This document shows positions 3,105-63,805 of a DNA stretch of 64,000 nt, one piece after another. The position numbers and the translations under genes are program-made. The stretch comes from an uncultured SAR116 cluster alpha proteobacterium (GTDB lineage Bacteria > Pseudomonadota > Alphaproteobacteria > Puniceispirillales > Marisalimonadaceae). The first letter of the stretch is position 1. Each line of letters begins with the position of its first letter. Under the pieces are notes generated by a model that saw only the letters and a program-made list of their open reading frames with translations, did not search any database and was not told the origin of the DNA. Location of the stretch: positions 53,708-117,707 of the forward strand of contig CACMTN010000003.1 of the NCBI GenBank assembly GCA_902616615.1. Direction: 5' to 3'.

Positions 3105-3581
3105 TTAATCATCAATAGTATTTTTTATTTGATTAATTTTAGTCCTAATTTTTTTCATTCTTTCTTCAAGTACGTTTTTCTTAGGTGGGTTATTTGAGTC
3201 AAATTGGTCTAAGAGATTTGACATTTCATTTGCTAATTCATTACTTTGTCTATTCGAGTCTAAAAGTCTTATCTGAGTTTTTCTAATTAATGCACTTAAT
3301 ACGACATTTGATTTAATCATTTTTGTAAAGTATGATTTAGGTATTTTTTTGGCTACTAACTTTTGTGCACATACTTTAGCGGTAACTGTTCTTGGAACGT
3401 TAAGTAAAATGGAAGTTTCACCAAATATTTCTCCCATGCCAAGCCTATTAAGTTTCAATCCATCTTTGGTTTCAATATTTACATATCCTTCTAAAATTAA
3501 GTATGCCTCAGAGGCCTCGTTTCCAGCTTCATATATTACTTCACCAGGTTCCCAAATTGCTGATTTACCATTGTCTTGCAT
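3105..3581 (-). CDS. Cyclic nucleotide-binding domain protein
   Basis: EPGEVIYEAGNEASEAYLILEGYVNI...LGMGEIFGETSILLNVPRTVTAKV = cNMP-binding fold. Confidence 0.85.
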   Translation of the reverse strand: MQDNGKSAIWEPGEVIYEAGNEASEAYLILEGYVNIETKDGLKLNRLGMGEIFGETSILLNVPRTVTAKVCAQKLVAKKIPKSYFTKMIKSNVVLSALIRKTQIRLLDSNRQSNELANEMSNLLDQFDSNNPPKKNVLEERMKKIRTKINQIKNTIDD

Positions 3582-33382: not shown

Positions 33383-33413
33383 TTTACCTTCCTCTTAGGG
33401 AAGGGTTTAAAGA
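33383..33413 (+). promoter_or_regulatory. CueR/MerR-type copper-responsive promoter (P1)
   Basis: TTTACC-19 bp (TTCCTCTTAGGGAAGGGTT)-TAAAGA; imperfect dyad ACCTTCC...GGAAGGGT; upstream of DUF4396/cyt c/MCO operon. Confidence 0.7.
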
Positions 33414-33429: not shown

Positions 33430-33873
33430 ATGATTATTCAAGATGTCATACAGATAAACTGGTTCTGCCAACATACTTGGTTACAGTCGTCTAAAAATAC
33501 TTTGTGGTGTTTGCTTGGATGTTGTATTGGAGATTTTGGTACAATTGCATATTTTCAATTCATGGAGATTGAATGGCCCGTTATATTAATCATGTCGCTG
33601 GCCATTGTTAATGGAATATTGACATCTATCGCACTTGAAACTTTTATACTTTCAAAGCAAATGTCTATGAAATTAGCCTTTAAAACAGCAATAGGGATGT
33701 CTTTAGTTTCTATGATTTCTATGGAATTAGCTATGAATTTAACTGATGTTGCACTTACTGGTGGTGCTATTTTAACATGGTGGGTTATTCCTTTTATGCT
33801 TATCGCAGGATTTATAACACCCCTACCATACAATTACTGGCGATTAAAAGCTTTAGGCAAAGCATGTCATTAA
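33430..33873 (+). CDS. DUF4396 membrane protein
   Basis: NTLWCLLGCCIGDFGTIAYFQ...LAFKTAIGMSLVSMISMELAMN. Confidence 0.8.
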   Translation: MIIQDVIQINWFCQHTWLQSSKNTLWCLLGCCIGDFGTIAYFQFMEIEWPVILIMSLAIVNGILTSIALETFILSKQMSMKLAFKTAIGMSLVSMISMELAMNLTDVALTGGAILTWWVIPFMLIAGFITPLPYNYWRLKALGKACH

Positions 33874-34364
33874 ATTTTAAAAGTTTTATTAAAAATAAAT
33901 CTTTATTTCTAATAATTATTCCTTCAATAATTTTAATTTTAGGAATGGTTATCTACTTGGCTAAGGAAAAGGTTGCTGAAGCATCTATTACTTTAATCCC
34001 TGATAATAAAGAAGCTATTTCATTAGGAAAATCTGTATATGTTCAAAATTGTGCATCATGCCATGGTGCAAAATTAGAAGGTCAAAAAGATTGGATGTCC
34101 AGACTCCCAGATGGATTAATGCCTGCTCCTCCTCATGACGAGACGGGTCACACTTGGCATCATAGTGATAAATATTTATTCCTGATTACAAAATACGGTA
34201 TTGAGGATATTATAGGTCAAAATTATCCTAATAATATGCCCGCTTATAAAGATATCCTCTCGGATAAAGAAATTATATCAGTATTATCTTATATAAAAAG
34301 TACTTGGCCAAACAAAGTTAAAAAAATCCACGATCAAATCAATGATCGTGAGAAATCAAAGTAA
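33864..34364 (+). CDS. Membrane-anchored/secreted c-type cytochrome
   Basis: NCASCHGAKLEGQ (CxxCH), NNMPAY distal Met; ATG at 33864 overlaps upstream stop, ORF-track start 33777 over-extended. Confidence 0.88.
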   Translation: MSLNFKSFIKNKSLFLIIIPSIILILGMVIYLAKEKVAEASITLIPDNKEAISLGKSVYVQNCASCHGAKLEGQKDWMSRLPDGLMPAPPHDETGHTWHHSDKYLFLITKYGIEDIIGQNYPNNMPAYKDILSDKEIISVLSYIKSTWPNKVKKIHDQINDREKSK

Positions 34365-34382
34365 AATTTAATTAAATTATTA

Positions 34383-35780
34383 ATGGAAATAAATATGCTA
34401 TCTCGACGTGAATTTTTAAATTTTTCAGCAGCGACAATTGCTTTAACATCTTTACCTAATCAAATTCAATCTAACCAATTAATTCGTAATTATAAGCTAA
34501 CAGCTGAGATTACCCCACATTTATTCGATAAGAAAGGTGTCTTGGATAGCTTGTGGTTGTATAACAAACAATCACCTGGGCCAGTCATTGAGGCAAAAGA
34601 AAACGATGTCATAAGAGTTGAGTTTGTTAATAATTTAGATGGGGCCAGCACAATCCACTGGCATGGTATAAAAAATATTAATAAGATGGATGGTGTTCCA
34701 TATTTAACTCAGGACCCAGTACAGCCTGGAGAAACTTATATATATGAATTTCCAGTTAATAATGCAGGAACATTTTGGTATCATGCACATTTTGAAACTT
34801 GGAAACAAATTTCGAAAGGTTTATATGGACCTCTGATAGTCAAAAACCATTTAGATAAACAATTTGATAATGATATCATTATATTAGCTGATGATTGGAG
34901 ATTGAATAAAAATTATCAATTAGATAAAAAATCATTAGGCTCACTTCATGATTGGTCACATGCAGGAAGAATTGGAAATTGGCTTACTATTAATGGAAAA
35001 AAATTTCCTGAATACTCTGTAAATAAAAATGGCTATGCAAGATTAAGATTTATTAATGCCTCTAATGCAAGGATACTTTCATTTGGCTCTAGTTTAAATG
35101 GAATGAAGATCATCTCAATAGATGGCATGTCGGTTGAACCATTCATTCAAGATAAATTTGATTTGGGGCCAGGACAAAGGATTGATTTGTTAATAAAAAC
35201 TGATGATATGTCAACAATTGATTTCTTTGAAGTCAGTGGTAAAAAACCGTTAAATGCTTTCAAGCTAAATGTTAATCAAAGTAGTAAAAAAAATATTCTA
35301 AAAAAAGAAATAAAACTACAATCTTTAAAAAAAATACCACCGTATAAAAATCCAAAAATATTAAAAATTCATATGCAAGGCGGTGCAATGGGAAATCTTG
35401 CTAAAGCCTATTTTGAAGGTGAAGAAAAAAATTTTCGTTCATTAGCAATGGAAGATAAAAAATTCTGGGCGTTTAATAAAGAGGTAGGTAAGTATGAACA
35501 TTCACTCGCAAGTATAAAAAAAGGAGAGATAATAATTTTAGATGTTTGGAATGACTCAAGATGGCCACATAGTATGCATCTGCATGGTAATCATTTTTAT
35601 GTTGAGTCAAAAGAATTTTCTGGAGATGATAAACTAATCCTCAGAGATACATATCTAATGCAACCAGGTGAAAAATCAAAATTTATATATTTAGCAGATA
35701 ATCCTGGTAAATGGCTTTTTCATTGTCACATGTTGGAACATGCAGCTTCTGGTATGATAGGTTACATAGAAGTAGTTTAA
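34383..35780 (+). CDS. Multicopper oxidase, Tat-type signal
   Basis: SRREFLNFSA; IHWHGI, WYHAHFE, HSMHLHGNHF, HCHMLEHAASGM Cu-site motifs. Confidence 0.93.
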   Translation: MEINMLSRREFLNFSAATIALTSLPNQIQSNQLIRNYKLTAEITPHLFDKKGVLDSLWLYNKQSPGPVIEAKENDVIRVEFVNNLDGASTIHWHGIKNINKMDGVPYLTQDPVQPGETYIYEFPVNNAGTFWYHAHFETWKQISKGLYGPLIVKNHLDKQFDNDIIILADDWRLNKNYQLDKKSLGSLHDWSHAGRIGNWLTINGKKFPEYSVNKNGYARLRFINASNARILSFGSSLNGMKIISIDGMSVEPFIQDKFDLGPGQRIDLLIKTDDMSTIDFFEVSGKKPLNAFKLNVNQSSKKNILKKEIKLQSLKKIPPYKNPKILKIHMQGGAMGNLAKAYFEGEEKNFRSLAMEDKKFWAFNKEVGKYEHSLASIKKGEIIILDVWNDSRWPHSMHLHGNHFYVESKEFSGDDKLILRDTYLMQPGEKSKFIYLADNPGKWLFHCHMLEHAASGMIGYIEVV

Positions 35781-35787
35781 TTTAAAA

Positions 35788-36975
35788 TTAAGTACGTACC
35801 AAAACTGTGTCCATTAAGCCTTTTCCTCTGATCTGAATAGTTTTTCGCTCTATATTACTATCTTTATAGTTTACTAAATCGAAAGTATTTTTAGACATAT
35901 GAATACAGTCAGGTGTTCCATAGCTCTCTAATCTTGCAGCAGTATTAATAGTATCGCCCCATACATCAAAAGCAAATTTTGACTTTCCAATAACTCCAGA
36001 TATAGCAGGGCCTGAATTAATTCCTATTCTAAGTTTTATGGGATTACCATTATGATCTTTGAATTGAGCAGATATTTTTATCATTTCCTTGGCAAGATTA
36101 AATAAAGTTAGAGCATGATCTTCTTTTTGGACTGGCATGCCTGAAACAACCATATATGAGTCGCCAATTGTTTTTATTTTTTCTACACCATATGCTTCAG
36201 TTAAGTCATCAAACTGAGAAAACATGTCATTTAAAAAACCAACAATTTTCTCTGATGAAATTTTTTCAGACATTTCAGTAAAACTAACTATGTCTGCAAA
36301 TAAAACAGATATTTCAGGATTATCCATAGATATGGTTTTGATATTATTTTTTAGCTTTTCTGCAATTGATTTAGGCATAATATTATGAAGAAGTTTTTCA
36401 GATTTGTTACGCTCTTGTTCTAAAAAGATAGAATACATCCCCATAGGTAATCCTAAGACAAGTAAACTGCCAACTATATTGCTGACACCAATTATAGACT
36501 CTGTTAAATCATTGATCTGATAAAGAGGTTCCATTTCAGAAAAAGAAATAAACATATATGAATAGATTGAAATAAAGACCAAAGCTAAAAAGGCTTTAAG
36601 CCTAATATCTAAAGGGACAGCTATAATTAATATTGCTAAGTTAATATACCAAAGGTGAAAAAATGAATTCCAACCAATCAAAAAAATAAATGCTGTAGCC
36701 GAACCTACGCCAGCAATGCAAGACAATATAACTCCAAATTTTGCAAAACCTAAAGTATGTAGAATAAATCCAAACGCTATAAATGAAGCAAAAAACAATT
36801 CAGAAAGAACTAAAGGTTCCCAATTTTGAATGGTCAAATAAAATAGAAAATCCCTTCCAATAAGCCCTACTCCACCAGCTATAAAACCTAACTGCATTGC
36901 TAGAAAGGCAGGTTTCCATTTTTCTGGATATCTTAAAGGGGGAACGCTTAATATATTAACAATAAAATTAATCAT
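35788..36975 (-). CDS. Membrane class III adenylate cyclase
   Basis: N-terminal multi-TM region then VLFADIVSFTEMSE...VEKIKTIGDSYMVVSG...FDVWGDTINTAARLES (metal Asp, K/D adenine-selectivity residues, NxxxR). Confidence 0.9.
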   Translation of the reverse strand: MINFIVNILSVPPLRYPEKWKPAFLAMQLGFIAGGVGLIGRDFLFYLTIQNWEPLVLSELFFASFIAFGFILHTLGFAKFGVILSCIAGVGSATAFIFLIGWNSFFHLWYINLAILIIAVPLDIRLKAFLALVFISIYSYMFISFSEMEPLYQINDLTESIIGVSNIVGSLLVLGLPMGMYSIFLEQERNKSEKLLHNIMPKSIAEKLKNNIKTISMDNPEISVLFADIVSFTEMSEKISSEKIVGFLNDMFSQFDDLTEAYGVEKIKTIGDSYMVVSGMPVQKEDHALTLFNLAKEMIKISAQFKDHNGNPIKLRIGINSGPAISGVIGKSKFAFDVWGDTINTAARLESYGTPDCIHMSKNTFDLVNYKDSNIERKTIQIRGKGLMDTVLVRT

Positions 36976-37001
36976 GTATTAAAGTCCATTTATAATTATA
37001 A

Positions 37002-37032
37002 AGACTAAACCTTTCTGTTGGGGTAAGGTAAA
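37002..37032 (-). promoter_or_regulatory. CueR/MerR-type copper-responsive promoter (P3) for the adenylate cyclase
   Basis: Minus strand: TTTACC-19 bp (TTACCCCAACAGAAAGGTT)-TAGTCT with ACCTT-N11-AAGGT dyad. Confidence 0.62.
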
Positions 37033-37136: not shown

Positions 37137-37358
37137 ATGAGCGAGTTTGTTTTAGTCATTTTAGTAACGATGGGTCTAAGTAAGGTTCCCTCTACCTATG
37201 AAATAAGGGTTCCAAAAAAAACCTACAAACAATGTGTAGAAGATTCTAAAACTTATAAATTTCCATTTGAAGAGCTGCATAAAGTTATATCTGTAAAAAC
37301 TAGATGTGAAAAAGTGATTGGAAATCAAAGACAATTGGAAAATGACAAATCTATTTAA
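37137..37358 (+). CDS. Hypothetical small protein
   Basis: 73-aa ORF in the copper island; family unknown. Confidence 0.4.
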   Translation: MSEFVLVILVTMGLSKVPSTYEIRVPKKTYKQCVEDSKTYKFPFEELHKVISVKTRCEKVIGNQRQLENDKSI

Positions 37359-37466: not shown

Positions 37467-37497
37467 TTGACCTTCCCCTAAGGGTAAAGCTTATATG
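37467..37497 (+). promoter_or_regulatory. CueR/MerR-type copper-responsive promoter (P2)
   Basis: TTGACC-19 bp (TTCCCCTAAGGGTAAAGCT)-TATATG; very similar to E. coli PcopA (from memory). Confidence 0.75.
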
Positions 37498-37542: not shown

Positions 37543-38202
37543 ATGTTTTTTAAAAATCGGAGTAAATATATGATGAAGATACTAGTGATCTGTGTATTAA
37601 GTTTATTTTTAAATTTCTCAACTGCTACAGCTCACTCGCCAGTAGGATTTGTGGTTCCAAAAGATGGGTCTATAATCAAAAAGGCTCCAGAAAAAATGGA
37701 AATCGTTTTTACTGCACCGGCAAAACTCATTAAGGTTGAGTTTTCAAAAGTTACATCAAACCAAAAAAAGTCATTAATTAGTGGCCTGCTTGGAAACGAA
37801 ACTTTAACTCCAATAAAATTAAATAAAGATCATCTTATGAATGAATCAAGACGACATATTATCAGTCTACCTAAATTAGACGATGGTATATATAAAACAG
37901 CATGGCGCGCACTTAGTGAAGATGGTCACGCTATTAAGGGTGAGTTTATATTTGAGGTGTCACCCGAAGGTACAGATGTATCAGGTGCTGATGTAAAATT
38001 GTTAATTGGTGAAGGTCAAGTTAAACGTGTAAGAGGGACAAAAATAACAATAAAACATGGACCGTTAGGAGAGTTAATGCCAGCGATGACAATGGAATTT
38101 AGTGTCTCAGACAAAAAAGTAATCTCAAACTTTAAAAGGGGAGACAAAGTTAGGTTTCAAGTTAATAAAGAATTAGAACTTATTAAAATTGAATTAAATT
38201 AG
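37543..38202 (+). CDS. CopC-like domain fused to CusF-like domain
   Basis: AHSPVGFVVPKDGSIIKKAPEKMEIVF...WRALSEDGHAIKGEFIFEV (CopC), then GEGQVKRVRGTKITIKHGPLGELMPAMTMEFSVSDK...FKRGDKVRFQV (CusF). Confidence 0.85.
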   Translation: MFFKNRSKYMMKILVICVLSLFLNFSTATAHSPVGFVVPKDGSIIKKAPEKMEIVFTAPAKLIKVEFSKVTSNQKKSLISGLLGNETLTPIKLNKDHLMNESRRHIISLPKLDDGIYKTAWRALSEDGHAIKGEFIFEVSPEGTDVSGADVKLLIGEGQVKRVRGTKITIKHGPLGELMPAMTMEFSVSDKKVISNFKRGDKVRFQVNKELELIKIELN

Positions 38203-38216
38203 AAAACTAAGAAAAT

Positions 38217-38537
38217 ATGTATATAAAAAAAGAAATAACTACAAAAACCAATTCTAAAAAGGCTATTTTTACCTCTGCTAACTATTTTAATTTTCAAAAT
38301 TTTTTATTCACTTTTAAAGCTCTTGTTTTCTTAATGATTGTTAAAACCATTTCGTTTTCAGTAATTGCCAAAAGTGAAGAGAATTCAACAAATAAAAATA
38401 TATATATATCAATTTTTGACTCTTATGAAAAATGGGAATGGGAGGACACATCAGACTGGATTATTTCAAATAAAACAGTCGATGAGATTGGAGGGTGGCA
38501 ATATTACTCTCGTGAAAAAAGCAAGGAAAAAAAATAG
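38217..38537 (+). CDS. Hypothetical membrane-anchored/exported protein with W-rich C-terminus
   Basis: TM/signal then YEKWEWEDTSDWIISNKTVDEIGGWQYYSRE. Confidence 0.6.
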   Translation: MYIKKEITTKTNSKKAIFTSANYFNFQNFLFTFKALVFLMIVKTISFSVIAKSEENSTNKNIYISIFDSYEKWEWEDTSDWIISNKTVDEIGGWQYYSREKSKEKK

Positions 38538-38544
38538 GTTAGCG

Positions 38545-39945
38545 ATGAAATTGAGAATTTTTTATTTTGGCTTAATATTTTTAATATCTGGTTGTTCGTC
38601 TTATAAATTTGATCAAAGTTTAAATAATATTAATAGCAACAAAGATATTGTTATTGCTGGTAAAATAACCGCAGCTATTAACCAGGAACAACAAAATGAA
38701 TTATTTAATAATTCAAAAGAGCTTCTAAATTCAGAAGTTGGTGAAAAGGAAGCTGTAGAATTAATGCTTTCCAAAAGTCCTAGTTTTCAATCCCTTTTAT
38801 TTAAATATCGCGGAAGTGGGTCAGCTGCTGCTCAAAAGGGAAGGATTTCTAATCCAGTGTTTTCGTTTGAACGAATGGTGAAGGGTTCTGAAATAGAATA
38901 TGGGAGGTTTCTGAGTTTTGGACTCCTTGATTTGCTTTCACTTCCAACTAAACAAAAATCCTCAAAACTTGCTGTTGATTTGAATGATATAAATTTTGCT
39001 TCTGAAATTTATGGGGCAATTAGTGATGTAAGAATGTCTTGGTTTGAAGCAGTTGCTTCAGAACAACAACTAACTCTTTATGATAATGCCTTTGTTGCTC
39101 TTTCTGCGAATGCTGAACTTGCTAAACGAATGAAAAAAACTGGTAATATGACAACTAGTGATAGAGTTCGTCAACAATTAATCTATTCGGAATCCACTGT
39201 AGCACTTGCTAAAGCAAAAATGAGAAAAATATCTAGTAGGGAAAACTTAATACGTCAAATAGGTCTAACCGAGAGTGAAGCTAATAATTTAACCATACCT
39301 AAAAAATTACCAGAATTACCAAAAACACCAATATCAATAGAGAAAATTGCTGATAAAATTAGTAACAGATTTGACGTAAAAACTGCTCGTATTGAATATG
39401 AATTGCTATTGGAACAGTTAGGAGTTGAAAAAATCAATTCTTACACAGATATCGAATTTGGATATAGAAATGATAGAATAAAAGATGATGGAGTTATCTC
39501 AAACAAAAAAGGCTATGAACTTGAAATTAAAATCCCAATCTTCGATTGGGGTAATCTTCAAAGAGATACAATTCAAGCAGATCTAATTGCTAAGCAAAAA
39601 ATTTATGAGAATATCGTACTAGCTGCAGCGTCTGAACTTCGTGAGGCTTATCAAAACTATAGGACAGCCTTTGATATCGCAAAACATTATTATGATCAAA
39701 TTATTCCAATGCACGAAATACTCTTAGAAGAAGCAACTTATAATTATAATGGAATGATAATTGGAATATTTGAGTTGATGCAAAGTGGGCTTGAGAAATC
39801 AACAGCTGAGATAAAAGCTACAGACGCATTACAAAACTTATTTACTGCAGAACTAAACTTAAATAGTGTTGTTCTAGGTAGAAAACTAGGGGCAAAATCA
39901 AGAACCACAGAAATTGCCTCTAATAAAGCTAAAAAAGGGCATTAG
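38545..39945 (+). CDS. TolC-family outer membrane efflux lipoprotein
   Basis: ATG at 38545; LIFLISGCSSYKF lipobox; OEP repeats (GYELEIKIPIFDWGN). ORF-track start 38365 overlaps the previous gene and is over-extended. Confidence 0.85.
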   Translation: MKLRIFYFGLIFLISGCSSYKFDQSLNNINSNKDIVIAGKITAAINQEQQNELFNNSKELLNSEVGEKEAVELMLSKSPSFQSLLFKYRGSGSAAAQKGRISNPVFSFERMVKGSEIEYGRFLSFGLLDLLSLPTKQKSSKLAVDLNDINFASEIYGAISDVRMSWFEAVASEQQLTLYDNAFVALSANAELAKRMKKTGNMTTSDRVRQQLIYSESTVALAKAKMRKISSRENLIRQIGLTESEANNLTIPKKLPELPKTPISIEKIADKISNRFDVKTARIEYELLLEQLGVEKINSYTDIEFGYRNDRIKDDGVISNKKGYELEIKIPIFDWGNLQRDTIQADLIAKQKIYENIVLAAASELREAYQNYRTAFDIAKHYYDQIIPMHEILLEEATYNYNGMIIGIFELMQSGLEKSTAEIKATDALQNLFTAELNLNSVVLGRKLGAKSRTTEIASNKAKKGH

Positions 39946-39976
39946 TGAAAAATAATAGCAAAAAATGGAGACTTAA

Positions 39977-41383
39977 GTGAAAACAAGACGCGAATTTATA
40001 AAGATGTCTGCATTAGCAGGCACAGCAATAGCAGGTGCATCCGTTGCTACCTCGTCACTCGCGGGGTTACCCGAGCCGGTGATACAAACATCTGCAGACA
40101 CAATCAGTCCAAATAAGTCGAAAGAAACATCCGAGTATAATCCCGTTGTTACACTTAATGGATGGACATTGCCTTACAGAATGAACGGTAACTTTAAAGA
40201 GTTTCATTTAGTTGCTGAACCTGTTGTTCGTGAACTAGCACCTGGAATGAATGCTAATCTTTGGGGATATAATGGTCAAAGTCCTGGCCCTACAATTGAA
40301 GTTTTTGAGGGTGATAAAGTTAGAATTTTCCTTACAAATAAATTACCAGAACATACAAGTATTCATTGGCACGGCCAAAGACTACCTAATGGAATGGATG
40401 GAGTAGCAGGACTAAATCAGTTAGCTGTAAGTCCTGGTAAAACCTTCGTATATGAATTTGAAGCAAAACGACCAGGAACCTTTATGTACCATCCTCATGC
40501 TGACGAAATGACTCAAATGGCAATGGGTATGATGGGATTTTGGGTTACTCATCCCAAAAAAAAACATCCATGGATTAGCAAAGTAGATAGAGACTATTGT
40601 ATTTTACTAAATGCGTTTGATATTGTCCCAGGCTCAGAGACACCAAAAATAATGACCATGCTTGATTTCAATTTATGGGCTTGGAACAGCAGAATTTTTC
40701 CTGGAATTTCACCCCTTATAGCAAGAAAAAATGACCGTGTTAGAGTAAGAATTGGAAACTTAACAATGACAAACCATCCTATACATGTCCATGGAATAGA
40801 GTTTGAGGTAACAGGTACAGATGGTGGACCAACTCGACCAGAAAGTCGATGGAAAGAAGTAACTAGTGATATAGCAGTTGGCCAAATGAGGCAAATAGAG
40901 TTTATTGCTGATGAAGAAGGAGACTGGGCAATGCACTGTCACAAAAGCCATCATTCAATGAATGCTATGGGTCATAATGTACCTACAATGATTGGTGTTG
41001 ACCATAGAGGAGTATCAGAAAAGATTAAGAAGTTAGTTCCAGATTATATGGTTATGGGTGAACGAGGAATGGCTGATATGACTGAAATGACTATGCCATT
41101 ACCAGATAATACTATCCCAATGATGACAGGAGATGGTCCTTATGGCTCTGTTGAAATGGGAGGTATGTTTAGTATACTTAAGGTTAGAGCTGATCAAGCC
41201 CCAGGTGATTACACTGATCCCGGCTGGTTTAAAAACCCTGTAGGTAAACAGGCTTATGAGTATAAAGGAGAATTGCCAAAAATATCAAAAATAAATGGAA
41301 CAGGCAATCCACTTATGTCTTCAAAACCTAAAATAAAAACAACTCAATTTACAGCTGTAAAACCAAATTATAGGAAAAGTTAA
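39977..41383 (+). CDS. Multicopper oxidase, Tat signal (GTG start)
   Basis: MKTRREFIKMSALAG; SIHWHGQRLPNGMDG, MYHPHADE, HPIHVHGIEF, MHCHKSHHSMNAM. Confidence 0.92.
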   Translation: MKTRREFIKMSALAGTAIAGASVATSSLAGLPEPVIQTSADTISPNKSKETSEYNPVVTLNGWTLPYRMNGNFKEFHLVAEPVVRELAPGMNANLWGYNGQSPGPTIEVFEGDKVRIFLTNKLPEHTSIHWHGQRLPNGMDGVAGLNQLAVSPGKTFVYEFEAKRPGTFMYHPHADEMTQMAMGMMGFWVTHPKKKHPWISKVDRDYCILLNAFDIVPGSETPKIMTMLDFNLWAWNSRIFPGISPLIARKNDRVRVRIGNLTMTNHPIHVHGIEFEVTGTDGGPTRPESRWKEVTSDIAVGQMRQIEFIADEEGDWAMHCHKSHHSMNAMGHNVPTMIGVDHRGVSEKIKKLVPDYMVMGERGMADMTEMTMPLPDNTIPMMTGDGPYGSVEMGGMFSILKVRADQAPGDYTDPGWFKNPVGKQAYEYKGELPKISKINGTGNPLMSSKPKIKTTQFTAVKPNYRKS

Positions 41384-41414
41384 TAAATACATCTAAGGAT
41401 GTTAAAGGGTATAG

Positions 41415-42287
41415 TTGATGGATGTATGGATCGTTTTCACTCCTATTTTGAAAGTTCTACTTTATTTGGCTGGATTAGCAGTAGTTGGAACAAAATTGTT
41501 TGATCTTCATTTTAGTAAGTTTCAAACTATAGACAACATAGAATACTGTAACTTTTTATCTAAAAAAAGTTGTTTGTATGGCCTTATAATATCAGTTGGG
41601 ATGATATTTTCCATAGCAGGTAATTTAGGTGGAGAATTATTGAGTATTTTAGACCCAATTATTTTAGAGCTTGCTTTAACATCAAAGGCAGGATATGCAG
41701 CAATTTTTGCATTAATTGGTTTTATACTAATTGGAATTAGCACAAGACATGAAATAGTCTCTATTAAGTTCCTTGGGTGGCTAGGTATTGGTTTTGTTCT
41801 TTTATCATTTATTTACACAGGTCATTCCCAAAAATCTGGTATCTTAGCACAGATTTTACTTTTATTTCATCTCATTTGTGTGGCGTTTTGGATTGGATCT
41901 TTTATACCATTATACAATATGTGCTCATCTGCTAAAACAAGTAATCTTCATGTAATAGCCCACAGATTTGGTATTTTAGCTATTTTTTATTTGGCTGTTT
42001 TAATAATATCTGGAGGTTCATTTGCATATATTTTGATGAATGACATTGGTTTATTATTGAGCACTTCTTATGGTAACGCATTTTTAATTAAAATGTCTTT
42101 AGTTTCTTTATTACTTTTATTTGGAGCTCTAAATAAATTTAAAAATGTTCCATTAATAAAAAACGAGCCTACAGTTGGCTCGTTTCAACTAAAAAAATCT
42201 ATTCGCATTGAAATGTTCATTGCATTACTCATTTTATCCTTAACTAGTATTCTTACAACTTCGATGACATTACCTATGGGTGGTTAA
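41415..42287 (+). CDS. copD: CopD family copper resistance membrane protein
   Basis: Multi-TM; YTGHSQKSG...LLLFHLICVAFWIGSFIPLY. Confidence 0.85.
   Translation: MMDVWIVFTPILKVLLYLAGLAVVGTKLFDLHFSKFQTIDNIEYCNFLSKKSCLYGLIISVGMIFSIAGNLGGELLSILDPIILELALTSKAGYAAIFALIGFILIGISTRHEIVSIKFLGWLGIGFVLLSFIYTGHSQKSGILAQILLLFHLICVAFWIGSFIPLYNMCSSAKTSNLHVIAHRFGILAIFYLAVLIISGGSFAYILMNDIGLLLSTSYGNAFLIKMSLVSLLLLFGALNKFKNVPLIKNEPTVGSFQLKKSIRIEMFIALLILSLTSILTTSMTLPMGG
42155..42185 (-). terminator. Minus-strand intrinsic terminator inside the copD 3' end
   Basis: Minus strand: AAACGAGCC-AACTGTA-GGCTCGTTT then TTTATT; 9-bp perfect stem plus T-tract, downstream of the amidase gene. Confidence 0.7.
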
Positions 42288-55276: not shown

Positions 55277-56782
55277 TTAAGACTTTGATTTTAAATCCTT
55301 CAAAACTTCAGAAACGACCTTAATTGCAATTTTATTGTCTTCAATCTCTGACTTATCAATAGATAAAGACAAACCCGGAATATTTCTTTGAATCAAATTA
55401 TCATTTTCCTGCGAAAATTTTACAACTTCATATGTTTGAACCGGATAAGAAATACCCTTCACATTAATAGCCTCTTTTTTTTCACAGATAATTTTATTTC
55501 GAATTAATAAATATGTGTCTTCTGACAATAAAATTTTGTTAATACCAGCTCTTGCCTCAAGCCTAGATGCTAAGTTTACACCGTTGCCAATAATCGTGTA
55601 GTCCAGTCTATCTTCAGAACCAAAATTACCAACTGTGCACACTCCAGTATGGATTCCCATTCGAGCATTTAAAGGTTTTGCTAATCCTTTTTTTCTCCAT
55701 GAAATTCTAAGCTTGTTGAGTTCATCTAACATGTCCATTGCCATCGAAACACACGCGATTGCATCTTCTTCGTCTCCCCTTGAATTAGGGTCTCCAAAAA
55801 AAACTAAAATCGCATCACCAATAAATTTGTCTATTGTCCCACCCCATTTAATGGCGACATCAGACATTTTTGTTAGATATTGGGTTAGAAGTTCTGTTAA
55901 AACCTCTGGTTCTAATCTTTCAGTTAATTCTGTAAAACCTTGCAAATCTGAGAAAAAGACTGTCAAAGGCTTTCGCTTTGTTTGGACCTTTACGTCTAGT
56001 TTGCCTGAAAATATTGACTCATAAACTTGAGGTGAAAAGTATTTTGACAACTTTTCTGAAAGTGTTTTCAATTCAGAAGTTCTTTCCTCAACCTTTTTTT
56101 CGAGATTTATGTTTAAACTCTCTAGTTCTTGATGAGCTTTATTTAATTCTTTTAATCTTTTTTGCTCAAGTTGATAAAGCCTTGCATTTTCTAAAGCACT
56201 AGCAGTTTGATTTGCTAATATTCCAATCAATATTTCATCAGATTTATCAAAAATGTTCATTTTTTCACTTTCAACAGAAAATACACCGACAAGCTCATTA
56301 TCTATAAGCATTGGGATTGCGACCTGACTTTCCGCGTTTTTTAGACCTGGCAATTCAACTTTGTCCTGTAATTTATTTTTATTAGTAATTTGAACTTGTT
56401 CACGAATTGCTTGCATGTAACTTCTCTGCATTCCTAAATTTGCCATTCTCATGAGTTTTTTCTTTTCAGCAACTATGCCAATTACTCCAACACCAAATTC
56501 AACTTTTGCACCAATCCCTCTTTTTTCATATCCATAAGTTTCTAAAACGTTGAGATGTTTTTTATTTTCAGAAACTAGTAAAATCATAGAATGTTTAAAT
56601 CCAAAAAATTCATTCATTAATGATAGCATTGAAGAAGCAATTAAGTTTAAATCGAGAGATTTATTTATTTGATTAGAAATTTGTTTGATTATTTCGATTT
56701 CTTTTGATTTTCTATCAAGAAGAATTTTAATATTTTCTAATTCATTTTTAGATTGTGAAATTTTATCCATGCAAACTGACAT
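55277..56782 (-). CDS. GAF-domain class III nucleotide cyclase
   Basis: GAF region (VAIPMLIDNELVGVFSVES), coiled coil, then VFFSDLQGFTELTE...GTIDKFIGDAILVFFG...YTIIGNGVNLASRLEA. Confidence 0.9.
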   Translation of the reverse strand: MSVCMDKISQSKNELENIKILLDRKSKEIEIIKQISNQINKSLDLNLIASSMLSLMNEFFGFKHSMILLVSENKKHLNVLETYGYEKRGIGAKVEFGVGVIGIVAEKKKLMRMANLGMQRSYMQAIREQVQITNKNKLQDKVELPGLKNAESQVAIPMLIDNELVGVFSVESEKMNIFDKSDEILIGILANQTASALENARLYQLEQKRLKELNKAHQELESLNINLEKKVEERTSELKTLSEKLSKYFSPQVYESIFSGKLDVKVQTKRKPLTVFFSDLQGFTELTERLEPEVLTELLTQYLTKMSDVAIKWGGTIDKFIGDAILVFFGDPNSRGDEEDAIACVSMAMDMLDELNKLRISWRKKGLAKPLNARMGIHTGVCTVGNFGSEDRLDYTIIGNGVNLASRLEARAGINKILLSEDTYLLIRNKIICEKKEAINVKGISYPVQTYEVVKFSQENDNLIQRNIPGLSLSIDKSEIEDNKIAIKVVSEVLKDLKSKS

Positions 56783-61837: not shown

Positions 61838-63805
61838 CTACTCATGCCACCCTAAAGTATCCATTACTTCGATAATTTTCTTAAATTGTTTAGACCATAT
61901 AAAATTAGCTGGGTTTGTCCTACCTGTAAACATAGCTTTTGTATATTTATTTTCCAATTGATTGTATTCTAGTAAATATTTTTTCTGATTTTCAAAATCT
62001 TTTTCATGTTCGAAAACATACAAAAGAAATACGTGTGCATATCCAGAATTTCCGCAAAAAGGGCTTTTGCAATTATCAATTTCATCAGAAGTTTGTCTGT
62101 TTAAAATAATTTTTTTAGCTAATTGCTTTACTGCTTCTAGATCATCATTTAAAAAACTTGCTTGCATATAAAAAGACGTAAATGTATCAGTAGGGTTGTC
62201 GTCTAGTTCAAATAATTTTTTAAAAGAAGCAGTTGCTTGCTCAAACTTGTTACAAAGGGTAAAAACTTCTCCTGCTAATCCATATTGATAAGAATTATTA
62301 TTTATCAGGCTGTAACCTTTTTCAGCAAATTCTCCAGCTTTTTTGAGCCCACCCCATTCATTGGCTCTATCTCCGTCACGATTTAAGATATGTGCTGAAG
62401 CTAAAAAATAACCTTGCGCTAAATATGCATCAGCTTTGTCAGGATTTATTTCAATTGCTTTAGTTGCAAACTCCATTGCTTTTAAAAAGCATGCAGTTGA
62501 CGCTGCCCTTCGTTCTTTTTTTGATGCTTTATTACTTTTTGGTTTACAAAATCCGAGTCTAAATTTGTAATGATGTTTCCATGCTTGACTTAAATTATGC
62601 GCATATCCATTTGGATTAATTTTATATAGCTTGTCTAAGGCTTTTTCATAATCAGAATAACCTTCTCTAGACCACTTTTCCCTTTCTTTTGCAGCAAATT
62701 GCAGAAGTCTTAATTCTTCTATTGTTTCAATGTCATCATTTGACACACGAATTTTGTCTTCTCTAAGATTAAATTTAGATAGAACTGAAAGTACTAATTC
62801 GTCTTGGACTTTAAATAGATTGTCAGTTTTAGAATTTTTTAATTGTGAAAGAAGAATTTGATTATTTTTAATATCACGAATTTCAATATTAGTTCTCATG
62901 TCTTTGCCAAAAACCGTTACAGAACCACTCAGTATGTATCTCACGTTGTAACTCTTAATTAATTCTTTCTTTTGCAGATTTTTTTTTGCTACTAATAGGC
63001 TAGTATTCTTAGAAAGCACTTTCAAATTATCATACCCTGATAAACCACTTACAAAAAGATCAAGCATACTCTCTGATATAAAATTATGTTTAGATGAATT
63101 TGCTAAATTTTGAAATGGAAGGACAAGAACGACTTGTTTGTCTTCTAAGCTAGGATCTTTTAAATTTTCATTGTTTTTGTAAAATTGAAACGAGATAAAT
63201 CCTATAAACAACACTACTATTAATCCAATAGAACTAAGAGCGACCAAGTTTTTCTTAGCTCTAGTTTTACTAGATCTTTTTTGTGAAGAGTCTAAGAGTA
63301 CATCAAATGCATGAAATTCGTTTTGTTTTACTTTTTGAATACCAAGATCATTGAATGTAATTTTTGTTTTAGGCACCACAAAATCGTATACACTCTTAGA
63401 TATAGATATTCCATTAGGTTGTGCAAGGGCTTCCAAACGTGCCGCAATATTAACACCATCTCCAATAAGATTTCCATCTTTGTTAACTACGTCACCCATA
63501 TTGATACCAATGCGAAATTCTAACTTTATACCAGTTTTATTAGATTGATTCCTTTTTTTGATTTTATTCTGGAATTCAACACCACATTCTACAGCATTTA
63601 CCGCACTTGCAAATTCAGCTAAAACCGAATCCCCAGCTGTATTAAACACAGATCCATTATATTTGTTTAAAAGTTTTTTTAAAATTTTTTCGCATTCATT
63701 ATAGCTGTGCACTGTTCCGTTTTCATCTACTTCCATATGTTTGGAGTAGCCCACAACATCAATAACAAATATAACAGCTATTTTACGAATAATCTCGACA
63801 GACAT
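61838..63805 (-). CDS. Class III nucleotide cyclase with TM and TPR-like C-terminal region
   Basis: VIFVIDVVGYSKHME...GSVFNTAGDSVLAEF...NLIGDGVNIAARLEA; TM; TPR-like ATKAIEINPDKADAYLAQGYFLA. Confidence 0.88.
   Translation of the reverse strand: MSVEIIRKIAVIFVIDVVGYSKHMEVDENGTVHSYNECEKILKKLLNKYNGSVFNTAGDSVLAEFASAVNAVECGVEFQNKIKKRNQSNKTGIKLEFRIGINMGDVVNKDGNLIGDGVNIAARLEALAQPNGISISKSVYDFVVPKTKITFNDLGIQKVKQNEFHAFDVLLDSSQKRSSKTRAKKNLVALSSIGLIVVLFIGFISFQFYKNNENLKDPSLEDKQVVLVLPFQNLANSSKHNFISESMLDLFVSGLSGYDNLKVLSKNTSLLVAKKNLQKKELIKSYNVRYILSGSVTVFGKDMRTNIEIRDIKNNQILLSQLKNSKTDNLFKVQDELVLSVLSKFNLREDKIRVSNDDIETIEELRLLQFAAKEREKWSREGYSDYEKALDKLYKINPNGYAHNLSQAWKHHYKFRLGFCKPKSNKASKKERRAASTACFLKAMEFATKAIEINPDKADAYLAQGYFLASAHILNRDGDRANEWGGLKKAGEFAEKGYSLINNNSYQYGLAGEVFTLCNKFEQATASFKKLFELDDNPTDTFTSFYMQASFLNDDLEAVKQLAKKIILNRQTSDEIDNCKSPFCGNSGYAHVFLLYVFEHEKDFENQKKYLLEYNQLENKYTKAMFTGRTNPANFIWSKQFKKIIEVMDTLGWHE

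Follow-up and report, generated by a model that had tools for sequence, protein, structure and literature searches.

The analysed window, a 64-kb stretch of a SAR116 genome (G000; 63 contigs totalling 1.73 Mb, completeness 75%), carries a gene for a class III adenylate cyclase flanked by two operons that Pfam and NCBIfam profiles identify as copper operons (Table 1). The initial annotation of this DNA had placed the cyclase between two copper operons with the same type of promoter, and this arrangement was confirmed. The letters it had read on the minus strand upstream of the cyclase are likewise all present: TTTACC, a spacer of exactly 19 bp, TAGTCT, and an ACCTT-N11-AAGGT dyad between the -35 and -10 elements. 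The box starts 57 bp from the ATG at 36975. A 19-bp spacer is a described feature of CueR/MerR promoters (PMC7911910).

Table 1. Genes and promoters at the cyclase locus, in window coordinates.
Feature	Coordinates	Strand	Evidence and remarks
CueR-type promoter, left copper operon	33383..33413	+	TTTACC, 19-bp spacer, TAAAGA; 41.5 bits
DUF4396 membrane protein, gene 1 of left copper operon	33430..33873	+	PF14342 7.5e-35
Cytochrome c protein, left copper operon	33777..34364	+	PF00034 1.5e-11
Multicopper oxidase MCO1, convergent with cyclase	34383..35780	+	Cu-oxidase domains
Class III adenylate cyclase, 395 aa	35788..36975	-	PF00211 7.9e-54
CueR-type promoter, cyclase	37002..37032	-	-35 TTTACC 37027-37032; 19-bp spacer 37008-37026; -10 TAGTCT 37002-37007; dyad 37009-37029
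Small conserved ORF between cyclase and copC, travels with right copper operon	37137..37358	+	homologues in relatives
CueR-type promoter, right copper operon	37467..37497	+	TTGACC, 19-bp spacer, TATATG; 36.5 bits
CopC-CusF fusion	37543..38202	+	PF04234 and PF11604
TolC-type outer-membrane efflux protein	38365..39945	+	PF02321 2.2e-14
Multicopper oxidase MCO2	39977..41383	+	Cu-oxidase domains
CopD	41415..42287	+	PF05425 3.1e-17

Some gene models at the locus need qualification. The true start of the cytochrome c ORF probably lies downstream of its overlap with the DUF4396 gene. The start of the TolC-type gene is uncertain, and a small ORF (38217-38537) overlaps it. The best NCBIfam match of MCO1 is the CopA-type multicopper oxidase, with a score below the cut-off, and the small ORF next to copC has no family match in Pfam or NCBIfam. 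Two further proteins with class III cyclase domains are encoded inside the window (55277-56782 and 61838-63805), and PF00211 has eight matches in the whole window genome.

The N-terminal half of the cyclase is hydrophobic, its hydrophobic stretches falling within residues 22 to 186, and a single cyclase domain makes up the C-terminal part. The initial reading of its motifs as catalytically intact, with adenine-type K and D, agrees with the complete class III catalytic set found here: the metal-binding aspartates D228 and D272, the adenine-type pair K266 and D337, and the transition-state residues N344 and R348. Among solved structures, eukaryotic enzymes aside, its closest single-chain relative is the mycobacterial membrane adenylate cyclase 7yzi; residues 70-390 align to residues 113-444 of that chain. 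Two members of the clade to which the window belongs, from different subclades, have a TGA at Trp109 (G037, L058 and G030, L059). The G030 gene carries a second stop as well, and in the G037 gene Asn replaces the first metal Asp. The other six clade members have an intact cyclase. The disrupted copies may represent gene decay or dispensability, or errors of single-cell amplification.

The dyad ACCTT-N10..12-AAGGT occurs once in the 64-kb window, where shuffled sequence averages 0.20 occurrences. A CueR-type 27-mer, allowed up to three mismatches, was run against all 1.73 Mb of the genome. The cyclase box was the sole match without mismatches and the two copper-operon boxes had two; the remaining matches at three mismatches were at the level of a reversed-pattern control. 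This 27-mer had been composed with the cyclase box in view, and the independent test was a weight matrix trained without cyclase boxes. To avoid circularity, its training set was limited to the boxes of SAR116 relatives before DUF4396/multicopper-oxidase and copC operons. In the window, the matrix gave 41.5 bits for the left copper operon, 36.5 for the right one and 34.8 for the cyclase, and the next independent site reached 4.1 bits. Read as a rightward promoter, the cyclase site scored only 8.1 bits, and this orientation was rejected. By the copper-operon matrix, the cyclase shares its operator type with the genuine copper operons in this organism.

The same matrix was applied to 0.87 Mb of examined loci, many of them overlapping and the set enriched for copper loci. 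Above 20 bits, each site preceded a copper operon, cueR or the cyclase or was a reverse-strand shadow of such a site, with the sole exception of one G008 site with no recognised target. This exception (L160:1744-1770, G008:C2) is a strong box of 33.2 bits beside phosphonate-type genes, with no recognised copper gene downstream.

The cyclase is present in 14 genomes of the genus. In the clade of the window, every one of the eight members, counting the window itself, has the box upstream of the gene, 53-58 bp from the ATG. At least seven of them have a -10 element of the form TAnnnT, and the remainder have TACAAT or a similar sequence. Sequence-specified positions of these boxes are kept at 94-100%, as against 63-97% in the leader. 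One clade member (L060; G031:C53) retains the box although the DNA further upstream belongs to a different neighbour: specified positions are 94% identical, whereas unspecified positions, leader and upstream DNA are 63-67% identical. This pattern of a retained box amid diverged DNA argues for selection on the box. The 9.4-kb contig concerned is an inverted duplication that contains the cyclase and MCO1 twice each, and is probably an amplification chimera.

A ninth orthologue with a box (24.8 bits) was found in G028. This cyclase is 77% identical to that of the window, with only 51% identity at third codon positions, and sits amid unrelated metabolic genes; no homologue of the window copper genes was found within 8 kb of it. 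The other 13 orthologues have no box; five of them belong to the genus and eight to other families within the order. Conservation of the box upstream of orthologous cyclases thus held for the whole clade and G028 and did not extend to these 13. On the orthologue tree, presence and absence of the box require two changes, which may be two separate gains or a single gain combined with losses. A class-wide search of 386 genomes (E<=1e-60) revealed no such cyclase outside the SAR116 order, to which close orthologues are confined among the sampled alphaproteobacteria.

The box could be real and still represent inherited promoter DNA of a copper operon, the cyclase having moved into a copper locus and acquired copper-dependent expression without a signalling role. 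Every cyclase of the window clade adjoins MCO1, in G034 a copC box occupies the same interval between MCO1 and the amidase gene, and the two disrupted cyclases mentioned above would fit a gene of this kind. However, G028 carries a box with no copper genes within 8 kb, which weakens hitchhiking as an explanation, and the box is retained while the surrounding DNA diverges. Moreover, the cyclases of G010 and G021 lie near the MCO1 operon and have no box of their own; proximity alone therefore supplies no box. We regard inherited promoter DNA as unlikely.

The regulator itself was sought in relatives. The 27-mer pattern at up to two mismatches was matched in 41 of 58 family genomes. What followed the strong matches whose surroundings were inspected was a DUF4396 operon, a copC operon, a multicopper oxidase gene or the cyclase, with the one G008 exception; weaker, chance-type matches are also present in these genomes. 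In G006, G008, G018, G045 and G056 the box sits between cueR and a divergent DUF4396 operon. The two copies of the relatives' CueR that were scanned both pass the NCBIfam TIGR02044 cut-off (151.3 vs 147.4 bits), and the protein aligns with E. coli CueR without gaps. Cys112, Cys120 and Ser77, which are marks of monovalent-metal sensors in the MerR family, are kept in the CueR of all 20 genomes read. Ser77 of CueR-type MerR sensors has also been described elsewhere (PMC7911910). A weaker box-like site of 15.3 bits just before cueR in G035 (L106:4293-4319) possibly reflects autoregulation. No gene heads the box-bearing copper operons of the group more constantly than DUF4396, which also adjoins cueR in several genomes; a copper role for this family is a lead.

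Six of the nine genomes with a cyclase box (G028, G030, G036, G037, G038 and G042) have a cueR homologue, for which the initial annotation had suggested a search elsewhere in the genome; none was found in the window genome as assembled, nor in G031 or G039. In G036, G038 and G035 the gene is flanked by purN on one side and an EamA transporter gene on the other. These neighbours are also missing from G000, G031 and G039, so the whole cueR segment is either unassembled or deleted there. As G000 is only 75% complete, the missing cueR says little in that genome; its absence from G039, rated 99% complete, is a real caveat for control by CueR.

A different regulator of the MerR family might work on the box instead, since the operators of MerR, ZntR and CueR are alike and the only MerR protein found in the window genome and in G039 is one encoded beside ihfA. 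This protein, however, exceeds no metal-sensor family cut-off and has no metal-site region. The same type of box lies between cueR and the divergent copper operon in relatives, and the missing purN and EamA genes of G000 and G039 point to loss or non-assembly of the segment; a regulator other than CueR is very improbable. A functionless chance match is a scarcely credible explanation of the box: the motif is short and absent from 13 orthologues, but its score exceeds that of the next independent site in the window by about 31 bits, and it is conserved at the correct spacing across the clade.

The right copper operon (copC-TolC-MCO2-copD, 37543-42287) has a history of its own. Another genus (L166, L167, L175) has an almost identical operon, in which MCO2 is 97.7-97.9% and CopD 92-93% identical to the window proteins and the core of the promoter box at 37467 is identical. 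DUF4396, cytochrome c and CueR, compared in the same way, are 58-83% identical. Because its genes are so much more alike than these, the comparison suggests a recent horizontal transfer of this operon. In L057 the operon is missing from an otherwise same locus.

The predicted membership of the cyclase in the CueR regulon of this SAR116 clade is well supported. We consider it likely that rising Cu(I) leads CueR to switch on the cyclase and the copper operons alike, and that the enzyme makes cAMP; CueR binding, copper induction and cAMP synthesis are here inferred from what is known of the two families. Under this model, CueR would sit between -35 and -10 elements that are spaced too far apart, and would distort the 19-bp spacer when cytoplasmic Cu(I) rises. 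RNA polymerase would then transcribe the cyclase along with both flanking copper operons, and the membrane class III adenylate cyclase would make cAMP as a homodimer.

Cyclic-nucleotide-binding domains gave three to six matches per genome, and all of the proteins read have no DNA-binding domain. No CRP-type receptor was found among them, the HTH_Crp_2 profile giving weak and partial matches only; this is absence of evidence and not proof. As no CRP/FNR-type factor was found, cAMP would most likely act via stand-alone cNMP-binding proteins. One such protein of 158 aa is encoded in the window (3105-3581; PF00027 1.5e-14) and has an FGE...PRT stretch resembling a phosphate-binding cassette, which makes it a candidate cAMP target; a 129-aa family is another of this stand-alone kind. 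Any naming of the target, or of the purpose of the link between copper and the cyclase, is a guess. We put forward only tentatively, as a possibility somewhat short of probable, a complete relay from copper to cAMP, in which CueR would turn Cu(I) stress into cAMP, stand-alone cNMP-binding proteins and not CRP would read it, and two lineages would have maintained the promoter on the cyclase, in one case at a distance from any copper operon. If true, a common ocean bacterium converts copper stress into a global signal, beyond detoxification. The orthologues with and without a box offer naturally matched controls for one and the same cyclase.

We know of no copper link for the mycobacterial Cya/Rv1625c-type cyclases. 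The SAR116 cyclase resembles these enzymes (PDB 7yzi, 7yzk) in its hydrophobic N-terminal half, single cyclase domain and complete catalytic set, and differs from them in that its close orthologues occur, among the sampled alphaproteobacteria, in the SAR116 order only.

The CueR regulon of E. coli includes copA and cueO, and the regulator has relatives such as HmrR; known CueR regulons are made up chiefly of genes for copper export, oxidation and chaperones, and few extensions are known. Like E. coli CueR and HmrR, the CueR of the SAR116 relatives is a MerR-family Cu(I) regulator with C112, C120 and S77. The predicted SAR116 regulon also shares with that of E. coli the 19-bp spacer, the dyad between -35 and -10, and copper oxidase and export genes among the targets; it differs by including a nucleotide cyclase. 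The cyclase is thus an unusual target of a well-known regulator. The initial annotation had known of no described link between copper and cAMP for a CueR regulon, and a literature search, with most subscription journals outside its scope, likewise found no paper tying CueR to a nucleotide cyclase. The closest parallel comes from Pseudomonas aeruginosa, where CueR is reported to control a type VI secretion system (PMC6907878). In both cases CueR would control functions beyond the direct export and oxidation of copper; the target in P. aeruginosa is a secretion system, whereas in SAR116 it would be a second-messenger enzyme.
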